Positions 17,992 to 20,982 of a DNA stretch of 35,657 nucleotides are shown piece by piece. Made by a program: the position numbers and the translations under genes. Below the pieces are notes generated by a model that had not been told where the DNA came from, did not search any database, and saw only the letters and a list, made by a program, of their open reading frames with translations. Numbering within the stretch: position 1 is the stretch's first letter; each line of letters begins with the position of its first letter. Source of the stretch: Caulobacteraceae bacterium (GTDB lineage Bacteria > Pseudomonadota > Alphaproteobacteria > Caulobacterales > Caulobacteraceae); the NCBI GenBank assembly GCA_025359665.1, contig JANYFU010000410.1, positions 1-35,657 on the forward strand, written 5' to 3'.

Positions 17992-18255
17992 TTACAGCTG
18001 AGAGTTCAGAGCGTCTGCTGCCTCTGGATTGGTCCAGCCCGCGGCGCGTCGCCATTTTTCCGCGGCTTCGGCCGCTTCAAGCAAGGCGGTCGCGCGTTGC
18101 TCACAGATGCAAGGGAATCGCTTGCCGTCTGACGATGACCAGCACCGCGCCTCGGAATGGTAGAAATTCGCCAGCTCGCGAGCCGCGACCAGGGTTAATG
18201 GCCCGTGATCGGCTAAAACCGTTCCGGCAATATGCCGAAAGGGCGCGCCGATCAT
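17992..18255 (-). CDS. Small hypothetical protein (87 aa)
   Basis: Complete ORF, ATGA overlap with the upstream gene; no family recognised. Confidence 0.55.
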   Translation of the reverse strand: MIGAPFRHIAGTVLADHGPLTLVAARELANFYHSEARCWSSSDGKRFPCICEQRATALLEAAEAAEKWRRAAGWTNPEAADALNSQL

Positions 18256-18581
18256 GAGCGTGACAGGGCTATATCCAAGGCGCCCCCCAGCACGGACGAG
18301 GCCGTTGGCGTAAGCGCCTCCTCCATAATGCTTTCAACTATCAGCCGGCTCGCTCGACAGGGCGCGAAGGGTTCCTGGATCGCAACGTCCATTGATCGGA
18401 ACAAGCTAGCCCAGGCGACAAGATCGTCCGCCAACCGTTCGGCTAGGACTCTCAGGAACCCAATGTCGCGATCCGCCAGCATTGCCCCGGTTTCGAACCT
18501 TAGGGTGCAGTCTTCGCGGAAATCGAGGATCGAGGCGTCGAGAGCCGCCAATAGCACCCTCGGCTCGTCGGAACTTTGCAT
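18252..18581 (-). CDS. Small hypothetical protein (109 aa from ATG at 18581)
   Basis: The ORF track starts at 18689, but that start lies across the palindromic operators; the internal ATG at 18581 (MQSSDEPRVLLAALDASILDF...) is more plausible. Coupled to the downstream gene. Confidence 0.55.
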   Translation of the reverse strand: MQSSDEPRVLLAALDASILDFREDCTLRFETGAMLADRDIGFLRVLAERLADDLVAWASLFRSMDVAIQEPFAPCRASRLIVESIMEEALTPTASSVLGGALDIALSRS

Positions 18582-18606: not shown

Positions 18607-18633
18607 AATAATATTGCATAATGCGATATTATT
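18607..18633. promoter_or_regulatory. Palindromic operator copy 1
   Basis: AATAATATTGCAT-A-ATGCGATATTATT: 13-bp arms with a single mismatch; core TTGCATAATGCGA. Confidence 0.7.
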
Positions 18634-18646
18634 GTCAATCGCGGAA

Positions 18647-18663
18647 AATTGCATAATGCAATT
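18647..18663. promoter_or_regulatory. Palindromic operator copy 2
   Basis: AATTGCAT-A-ATGCAATT: perfect 8-bp arms about a central A. Confidence 0.72.
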
Positions 18664-19513
18664 ATTTTGTTGTTTGCTTCCTGAACCATCTTGCGAAAGG
18701 GCCGCCCCGGTTAGATTCGCGGAATAGAAAATCGAGACGCTGCGAATGCGGCGCTTGAAAAGGGGCGGTGCTTCGGTCCTTCGGGAGACCGATTGGTCCT
18801 GTCTCAGGAGCCTCCATCGGCCGCGTGGCGCCGCTCGTCGAAATGGACGGGCTTTAGCTGGACGGCGCGACCACACACACTCTGGACTTGGCGCTTGAGC
18901 GGTTCTCAGGAGAGGCGCGATGTCGATGGTAGGTCGATCGTAGGGGAGGGGGCTCGTCTGCCGGGGCTTCTGGCTCTCCGGCCAGCGCCTCGGGGCTCAT
19001 CGTCGAATCCGAAGCCCTAGCCTCATCTGTCGCGGCAATCATGAGCCGCTGGACGATATTCCGCCTGGGGCGGGGGCGGCCGACTCAGGGGCGAACATAG
19101 GGCCTAGAGGTGCGCCCCATGGCTGGAGCGCTGCGCACGGCAAGGCCAGTCCGACTTGATGACCGGCTTGCTTTGGGCGGTATGACAGTCGTCGGCTGTG
19201 GAAAGTCGCCAGGATCCCGCCGAATTCGCGTTTGCGATTTCAACATTCACGCGTTGAGAGGTGGTCGGGGTCCCCGACGCGATCGCTGTAGCGGCGGCCA
19301 TTTGCACGCCGCGCCGCTGGTTGGCCTTCTGGCTCGCTAGAACGGGAGCCCCCTATTGGTGGGCGTGTTTGGCCGGCCTATTGCGTTCGGGCTGGCGCCC
19401 CTCGCCGTTGGGTCGCTAGCGGAGCCGTTCTGATGGTGGGCCTTGGCGGCCAGCACTGAACTTAGACTCGGCTTGTCGGCCACCATATGGCGACGACCGC
19501 CGATTTCGGTGAG

Positions 19514-19915
19514 CTAAACCCCTTTTGGACCTTTGCGGCCGCGGGTGGCGTCGGATTTCTTGGGCTCGTCTGGCGGCGATGGTGTCTTCGGGCTCGTTGG
19601 TAGCGGCCGAACGTTATTACCGAAGGTTTTCAGGACCTCGCGAGCCAGGTCTCGCTTGTCCTCGGGCACGGTGGCCCAGATATCGAGAATGTCGCTCGAA
19701 GCCTCATTCGGGTTGACATCCAGCAGGTGGCCAGGCGTCGTGCCCAAAACCGGCGCTAGCCGCCGCAGCCACTTGTCGGACAGCCCTCGCTGTCCCGACT
19801 CAAGTAAGCTGATTACCGCGCCAGTTGTGTCGACGGCCTCGGCTAAATGACCTTGAGTCATGCGACGATATTCGCGCCAAGCGCGAAGAAAATTCTTCTC
19901 GGGTACTCTGGCCAT
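19514..19915 (-). CDS. XRE-family helix-turn-helix transcriptional regulator
   Basis: LRAWREYRRMTQGHLAEAVDTTGAVISLLESGQRGLSDKWLRRLAPVLGTTPGHLLDV is a classic HTH_3 domain; Pro/Lys-rich C-terminal tail. Confidence 0.88.
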   Translation of the reverse strand: MARVPEKNFLRAWREYRRMTQGHLAEAVDTTGAVISLLESGQRGLSDKWLRRLAPVLGTTPGHLLDVNPNEASSDILDIWATVPEDKRDLAREVLKTFGNNVRPLPTSPKTPSPPDEPKKSDATRGRKGPKGV

Positions 19916-20050
19916 CGGGTTTACCTTCCGCGCTGTAAATTGATCAAAGCTGACGATAGATGGCCAATGGAACGGCTATGCGCTCTCCAAATCAAGCGGA
20001 GGCGTTCTTGTCGTTGAGTTGGCGGCTATCGATCTGAGGCTCGAAACATA

Positions 20051-20063
20051 ACGCATTATGCAA
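20051..20063. promoter_or_regulatory. Palindromic operator copy 3
   Basis: ACGCATTATGCAA, reverse complement TTGCATAATGCGT; followed by AAATATT, giving GCAAATATT as also seen at copy 5. Confidence 0.65.
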
Positions 20064-20077
20064 ATATTTGGCGCGCG

Positions 20078-20090
20078 ACGCATCACGCAA
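20078..20090. promoter_or_regulatory. Palindromic operator copy 4
   Basis: ACGCATCACGCAA, reverse complement TTGCGTGATGCGT. Confidence 0.55.
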
Positions 20091-20118
20091 TTTGCAATTT
20101 TTTCACTTTACAAATCAA

Positions 20119-20131
20119 TTGCAATACGCAA
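20119..20131. promoter_or_regulatory. Palindromic operator copy 5
   Basis: TTGCAATACGCAA, reverse complement TTGCGTATTGCAA; ends 9 bp before the ATG at 20141. Confidence 0.6.
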
Positions 20132-20140
20132 ATATTGGGA

Positions 20141-20389
20141 ATGACAAATCCACCATCCCTCTCCACCCTATCCATAATTCCCTTGGCCGCCCGGCACTGG
20201 CTGACTCGTGTCGATGGTGAGTGCGCCTTTCCGGTGGGTGGCGAGGGAAAGGCGACGATCTCCTGTTGCAACCCTTCTGGAGAGGCTCGCTACTGCGGGG
20301 CTCATGTTGATGTGATGCGAGGTCCAAGGGTCACGTCGGCCGCGCAGTTTGAGAAAAATATGATGCGTTTTCTGGAGCAAAGGCCATGA
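20141..20389 (+). CDS. Small protein resembling the GcrA C-terminal Cys/His region
   Basis: HWLTRVDGECAFPVGGEGKATISCCNPSGEARYCGAHVDVMRGPRV resembles the GcrA tail (C-x-[FW]P-x-G ... FCG ... YCxxH); ATGA overlap with the next gene. Confidence 0.6.
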   Translation: MTNPPSLSTLSIIPLAARHWLTRVDGECAFPVGGEGKATISCCNPSGEARYCGAHVDVMRGPRVTSAAQFEKNMMRFLEQRP

Positions 20390-20982
20390 CCCGCAAACAC
20401 AAGGCCATCCGACCTTCCGACCCAATGGAAATAGTCCGCCGGCGCGCGGCTGAGCGAGCCTCCGGGCGCGACCCCGCGAATTGGGGCTTGGATAACGAAA
20501 TGCTTCGTCTTTCCGCCAACAAGGATGTGGAGACCGCGACGGACCAATCCGGAAGGATCTTACGCGCCCGTCGCCAGGACATATTCGATCTGATGAGTGG
20601 CCGCGGCCGTCTAAGCCCGTCCGCGGTGAATGCGGTTCGTCGATTGCAAGACGACATCGCCTGCCTGCACAGGACCGCGAACGGGAGCGTGGCGTTCGCT
20701 CCAAGGGTTGATCGCTCTCCCGATACCGAAGGTTTCAGCGAATCCCGCCGCCGTGCCGGCGCGCGGATCGAACTGGTCTTGTCGCTCGCCGGCGCGGCCA
20801 ACGCCCGTCTACTCGCGGCGCTTTGCGAACCGGAGGTGGTCCTTGGCCGCGCCAGCGACTGGCGCGCCGTGGTAAAGCGGGAAACAGGCGAAGGACTGTC
20901 CGATGCTCAGGGCGCAATTCTGCGCATGGCCTGCGAGAATCTGGCTGGGGCCTATGACATGGTTGATCGCCGAAGGGCTTAG
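20386..20982 (+). CDS. Hypothetical protein, DUF6456-like helical C-terminus
   Basis: Long ORF coupled to the GcrA-like gene; C-terminal SRRRAGARIELVLSLAGAANARLLAALCEPEVVLGRASDWRAVVKRETGEGLSDAQGAILRMACENLAGAYDMV. The family call is tentative. Confidence 0.55.
   Translation: MTRKHKAIRPSDPMEIVRRRAAERASGRDPANWGLDNEMLRLSANKDVETATDQSGRILRARRQDIFDLMSGRGRLSPSAVNAVRRLQDDIACLHRTANGSVAFAPRVDRSPDTEGFSESRRRAGARIELVLSLAGAANARLLAALCEPEVVLGRASDWRAVVKRETGEGLSDAQGAILRMACENLAGAYDMVDRRRA

Follow-up and report, generated by a model that had tools for sequence, protein, structure and literature searches.

An XRE-family regulator, its probable dispersed palindromic operator and a candidate domesticated phage switch in a genus of Caulobacteraceae

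What is governed by a small, phage-like regulator whose gene lies among five copies of one palindrome? The question is raised by the window, the whole stretch of 35,657 nucleotides analysed here, which comes from an uncultured soil/freshwater bacterium. Its genus is an uncultured one of the Caulobacteraceae, from which 16 genomes, all fragmented draft MAGs, were compared. The first-pass annotation had offered the simplest answer, a single XRE regulator controlling itself and two adjacent operons. The clade footprint, the synteny and the −35/−10 position of the sites uphold that answer as far as it goes, but it is too narrow for a regulon that is genome-wide.

The palindromes and the XRE locus

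Operators 1 (TTGCATAATGCGA, 18614-18626) and 2 (TTGCATAATGCAA, 18649-18661) are read on the plus strand, and operators 3 (TTGCATAATGCGT, 20051-20063), 4 (TTGCGTGATGCGT, 20078-20090, overlapped by a weaker match at 20085-20097) and 5 (TTGCGTATTGCAA, 20119-20131) on the minus strand. When coordinates and mismatches were checked, all five cores were found where they had been reported, with 0 mismatches at 18614, 18649, 20051 and 20078 and 1 at 20119, operator 5 being a perfect TTGCR-NNN-YGCAA palindrome. The core of operator 2 does sit within a perfect 17-bp palindrome, AATTGCATAATGCAATT. The longer palindrome around operator 1 has the single mismatched pair attributed to it but extends over 29 bp, not the 27 bp first given. 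The AT-rich patches described around the sites are likewise present, with GC contents of 35% and 40% against 63% for the window.

The five palindromes are real and far above chance. The 4.5-Mb genome (634 contigs) holds 11 copies of the exact consensus TTGCRTRATGCRW and none of the reversed control pattern; four of these copies fall inside the 1.5-kb window segment. The degenerate form TTGCR-NNN-YGCAA is found 13 times in the genome versus 11 for its control; the centre is all A/T in 11 of those 13, and when the centre is fixed as A/T the counts become 11 versus 0. With 2 mismatches allowed, the window holds 11 matches against 7.3 expected, which is not significant, so that the strength of the case rests on the near-exact sites and their conservation. 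Operator 5 is kept in most orthologous loci.

The XRE gene (19514-19915, minus strand) encodes 133 residues with an HTH_31 match above the cut-off and a match to phrog_7241. HTH families are its sole domain matches, an S24 peptidase domain being absent, and a structure search returned no close solved structure. On the far side of operators 1 and 2 lies gene Y (18252-18581, minus strand), whose 109-residue product matches no known family; its relatives in further species of the genus likewise adjoin operator sites beside the XRE locus. Divergent from XRE are two overlapping genes on the plus strand. The first, GcrAC (20141-20389), encodes a cysteine-rich protein of 82 residues that resembles the C-terminal part of GcrA; alone it has no Pfam match, since the N-terminal HTH of full GcrA is missing and the cysteine-containing C-terminal part is all that is present. 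At a different operator site the relative is longer, a full GcrA with a PF07750 match.

The second gene, R (20386-20982), encodes a putative phage regulator of 198 residues, akin to the DUF6456 type. The Pfam DUF6456 comparison is marginal (E = 1.8, with one of five members matching). An AlphaFold model of mean pLDDT 78 matches phage proteins, including a DUF6456 phage protein (E 2e-3, probability 1.00, TM 0.46), and a PDB fold search with the same model gave no confident or usable match. Homologues of R on phage contigs lie upstream of the terminase genes: those of viral contigs L374 and L376 precede TerS–TerL–portal, and in the distant phage L522 (45% capsid identity) an R-like gene stands ahead of TerS–TerL–portal–scaffold–capsid.

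XRE, GcrAC, R and usually Y are syntenic in several species, within the same housekeeping genes (NPD, MarR and MFS on one side; Lrp, a saccharopine dehydrogenase-like gene and aldehyde dehydrogenase on the other), and this shared setting identifies a fixed chromosomal locus and not a recent prophage. In several species (L176, L177, L179, L187) XRE and Y are separated by a pair of chromate-transporter (chrA-like) genes, which the window lacks.

The palindrome was followed through relatives by scanning up to 300 bp upstream of each XRE homologue, in identity classes of at least 54% (n = 16, window included) and at most 48% (n = 9). A perfect 10/10 TTGCR-NNN-YGCAA stands upstream of the XRE gene in 14 of the 16 closer homologues; of the other two, one has a 9/10 site and one is the second member of a tandem XRE gene duplication (G014:C291, L045/L061) whose first copy is preceded by a perfect site. 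None of the nine more distant homologues reaches even a 9/10 site. In about half of the homologues the palindrome ends 68-70 bp ahead of the XRE start. The rule is valid in other Caulobacteraceae genera, and in a prophage-like locus (L052) of another family of the order. On a viral contig with a 72% identical XRE the same palindromes are present; at viral XREs that are 61% identical, their position is taken by the sister form ATGCA-NNN-TGCAT. At one further locus (L189, 5490-6297) the operator-like TCGCATATTGCGA lies between a 51%-identical XRE and a divergent neighbour gene with DnaA domain IV-like sequence, reminiscent of GafY.

The phylogenetic footprinting proposed by the first-pass annotation was thus informative: the palindrome follows the XRE clade and none other, and its place within the syntenic locus is shared by related species. 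This tracking, within the genus, in other genera and on a viral contig, makes the XRE protein the likely binder of the palindromes. The features by which XRE-family phage repressors are recognised, a Cro/C1-type HTH and an inverted-repeat operator at the gene's own promoter, are both present, and the protein is predicted, very likely correctly, to be an autoregulated repressor. One clear XRE homologue is found in most genomes of the genus; protein distances of this short protein do not track those of LexA (rho −0.25).

The operator across the genome and its promoters

A search of the 16 genomes of the window genus gave 101 copies of TTGCRWWWYGCAA and 6 of its reversed control, compared with 25 and 12 in the family's other genera. 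The whole-genome motif search suggested at the outset therefore gave sites that are enriched and located at promoters, not scattered at random, and because of this the spread of the operator over the genome does not refute the XRE reading. The families found directly downstream are FamA (17 proteins), TerS-like proteins (12), XRE, Y, R and portal proteins. To avoid circularity, target families were searched again by protein instead of by motif, and a site of at least 9/10 was then found at 20 of 25 TerS paralogues, where 0.45 would be expected from shuffles. By protein search, sites also precede 8 of 9 portal operons (0.24 expected) and 13 of 16 terminase operons (0.80 expected). The same operator before many dispersed, mostly phage-derived genes amounts to a genome-wide regulon. 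The exact motif string does not appear in the literature searched.

Several individual sites deserve mention. In G010:C178 (L400, 1403-2187) one palindrome is common to two divergent TerS-like genes. In the window genome (G000:C171, L021, 2741-3609) an NYN-domain protein (PADLOC HEC-09) and a small ORF each have an XRE operator some 10-75 bp upstream; defence-system libraries returned nothing specific for the regulon genes, the matches being generic HTH ones and HEC-09 for the NYN protein. A site at C321 was considered as a control element of MqsRA and dropped, a TerS remnant starting 53 bp away on its opposite side.

By consensus match, a putative −35 element TTGACA of the gene Y promoter lies at 18633-18638 on the minus strand, between operators 1 and 2, and a putative TTTACA of the operon spanning 20141-20982 lies at 20107-20112 on the plus strand. 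In both window promoters the −35 (18638-18633 and 20107-20112) starts 12 bp ahead of the palindrome (operators 1 and 5, respectively). Elsewhere, TTGAC precedes the palindrome, with a preference for distances of 5, 12 and about 20 bp, and hardly ever has the reverse orientation. These fixed offsets mean that the operator overlaps the −35/−10 region, a position typical of a repressor site, and the dispersed operators thus overlap what are, as judged from such elements, σ70-type promoters of phage-derived genes.

The structural promoters carry a second element. In a set of 23 portal promoters, some of the genus and others of IMG/VR soil contigs, the palindrome follows TTGAC at a distance of 21-23 bp, and CCGG is found between the two in 22 of the 23, versus 1 of 41 FamA and TerS promoters. 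The element falls in the −35/−10 spacer of the structural promoters, upstream of portal (L419-L425, L477-L524). A putative GafZ element has been placed between −10 and −35 of the Caulobacter crescentus GTA promoter (PMC11150451), and by analogy R may act at CCGG.

Structural operons and readings of the regulon

In the window genome (G000) TerS–TerL adjoin lysS and an operator site precedes TerS by 23 bp, an arrangement that G008 shares; TerS–TerL in G011 and TerL in G015 are also neighbours of lysS, which places terminase there in four species. A second operon encodes portal (PF16510), a scaffold-like protein, capsid (PF13252), a virion protein, a head-completion-like protein, a lysozyme/glucosaminidase and a tailspike-like protein; in the window genome the capsid operon is interrupted by a contig end (L469). 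TerL is present in 13 of the 16 genomes of the genus, portal in 9 and capsid in 11, the capsid gene appearing in 0 of 63 genomes outside it. G004, a 100% complete genome, has XRE, FamA and 11 sites, and gave no match for terminase, portal or capsid. Host genes directly flank the structural operons on both sides, and no integrase or replication gene was seen among the ORFs read there in these fragmented assemblies. On four IMG/VR "viral" contigs (L494, L523, L524, L518) the capsid operon lies directly beside host genes, namely purA, accA or an oxidoreductase gene that also adjoins the operon in G002. These contigs are probably host chromosome rather than virus, and so some soil contigs catalogued as viruses are suggested to be host-encoded.

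The best reading of the data, and one that we consider probable, is that the XRE–GcrAC–R locus and gene Y together form a domesticated phage switch whose operators define a regulon spread over the whole genome. The XRE repressor would bind TTGCR-NNN-YGCAA where it falls within the −35/−10 region of a target promoter and so repress its own gene, the divergent GcrAC–R operon and gene Y. It would also repress distant promoters, namely those of TerS–TerL beside lysS, of orphan TerS paralogues, of the multicopy FamA and of the portal–scaffold–capsid–head protein–lysozyme–tailspike operon. Were repression lifted, R would be produced and, perhaps with GcrAC, would probably drive the structural operons through the CCGG spacer element, in a manner like the late-gene step of a phage. 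The predicted output is a podovirus-like particle made from split host loci, a candidate gene transfer agent that would carry DNA between cells. This last step is put forward tentatively, the balance of our judgement lying a little on the side of doubt: the genus may make a new, independently domesticated podovirus-type gene transfer agent with its genes at separate loci under one XRE operator, and with CCGG as the label by which a late activator or antiterminator of the R type would recognise the structural operons. Several observations weigh against the switch reading: the genomes are all fragmented MAGs, XRE distances do not follow those of LexA, G004 and G010 break the co-occurrence of XRE and structural genes, and a clear site is present at no more than about half of the FamA copies.

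If, instead, the structural genes were decaying remnants of ordinary prophages, with XRE as a surviving repressor, nothing would be packaged and no host function served. XRE, R and the head genes have clear phage relatives, and broken copies exist in some genomes (a portal frameshift in G002, a terminase fragment in G009). The host neighbours of the structural operon differ between lineages, a variability that fits mobility as well as domestication. Decay, however, sits poorly with head genes that are single-copy, mostly intact and 70-84% identical in 11 of the 16 species and absent outside the genus, with terminase fixed beside lysS, and with operons in which neither integrase nor replication genes were read. 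Distances of TerL (rho 0.82, Mantel p 0.0025) and of R (rho 0.88, Mantel p 0.0005) track those of LexA, and hence the host; tracking is weak, with few genomes, for portal (rho 0.12, p 0.35) and capsid (rho 0.49, p 0.10). Promoters with two conserved elements have also been maintained across species, and on this evidence we regard the remnant explanation as unlikely, if the most serious of the alternatives.

The multicopy family FamA, of unassigned function, bears on a second alternative. It has up to 25 copies in the window genus and up to 15 in a sister genus. By protein search the XRE palindrome is found at 21 of 39 FamA genes in the former and 0 of 19 in the latter (Fisher 2e-5), and the SOS box GTTC-N7-GTTC at 11 of 19 in the sister genus (G034, G046; L254-L273) versus 0 of 39 in the window genus. 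FamA is thus plausibly under DNA-damage control in the sister genus, and the family has probably changed over between two repressors, LexA and XRE, a change that hints at a regulon answering stress. XRE could on the other hand be a host silencer, a captured phage repressor conferring immunity by repression, whose targets derive from phages of the same immunity group. A phage-type XRE with its own operators does occur on a viral contig, and some targets belong to multicopy families, which may carry their own promoters along as they spread. The SOS boxes of the sister-genus FamA promoters indicate, against this, that the operator was not simply inherited with the gene. The locus is moreover syntenic with R and GcrAC, which are activator-like rather than immunity genes, and the structural operons are single-copy and genus-wide; a silencer is accordingly judged unlikely, slightly more so than prophage remnants.

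That the palindromes are bound by some different regulator, for instance a second HTH protein, is very improbable. Sites without an XRE match are found in G010 and G013, genomes that are incomplete or fragmented (G010, 97% complete, does have the structural genes), but the palindrome follows the XRE clade across genera and into phages while the rest of the genome differs. LexA was considered as a regulator that had switched to the palindrome and was rejected, as the lexA promoters of the window genus retain ordinary SOS boxes. Least probable of all is local autoregulation only, with distant sites bound by other regulators or non-functional, for although the local footprint is very strong, the distant sites share its sequence and geometry (TTGAC 12 bp upstream, as in both window promoters) and are confined to the genus that has the window XRE.

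The domesticated switch, if true, would illustrate how a regulatory circuit of phage origin can come to control genes dispersed over its host's chromosome; FamA, whose promoters have LexA-type boxes in one genus and the XRE palindrome in the other, is part of that case. The operator also offers a sequence tag by which every member of the regulon may be found, including the unknown families FamA and Y.

Comparison with known gene transfer agents and phages

Accepted families of gene transfer agents are few. Three independent origins are recognised (PMC9662315), and a P22-like agent in a Caulobacteraceae genus without RcGTA would, if true, be a further one. The RcGTA marker GTA_TIM (PF13547) is found in 0 of the 16 genomes of the window genus; the Caulobacter vibrioides control has it, as do 16 relatives that belong to other genera. 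The phage-derived gene set for terminase, portal, scaffold, capsid, lysozyme and tailspike, borne by the host chromosome and with no integrase or replicase among the ORFs read, is of the kind that a gene transfer agent in the functional sense would have. A literature search for a P22-like Caulobacteraceae agent found no paper.

The nearest regulatory parallel is in the same bacterial family. In C. crescentus the phage-like HTH repressor RogA, which has an S24 peptidase-like domain (PMC9632790), stands on top of the GTA hierarchy and represses the activators GafYZ, binding essentially the gafYZ promoter (PMC9632790, PMC11150451). The proposed switch is similar in having a phage-like HTH repressor above dedicated activators, in the response of phage-derived genes at several chromosomal loci, and in an element placed in the −35/−10 spacer of the chief structural promoter. 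It differs in that the window XRE is without the S24-like domain, in that its operator stands at every target promoter and not essentially at one, and in structural genes that are P22-like podoviral, not RcGTA-like. Regulation of the classic RogA type was rejected on the grounds that XRE lacks S24 and the RcGTA marker is absent.

With the LexA/SOS regulons of alphaproteobacteria the likeness lies in the GTTC-N7-GTTC of FamA promoters in the sister genus, and the difference in the XRE palindrome that the window-genus FamA promoters carry in place of an SOS box. BaGTA of Bartonella is, like the candidate described here, an alphaproteobacterial agent independent of RcGTA whose production genes extend beyond one structural cluster (PMC9662315). 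Its genes, however, are gathered in a single ~79-kb region that has an origin derived from phage (PMC9662315), whereas those of the window genus occupy well-separated chromosomal loci joined by one operator. The structural genes themselves are most like those of P22-like phages (portal PF16510, coat-type capsid PF13252), with the order TerS–TerL–portal–scaffold–capsid–head completion–tailspike; in the window genus, in contrast, the terminase is often apart from the head operon, and the operons read are without integrase, replication genes or an immunity region and are flanked directly by genes of the host.
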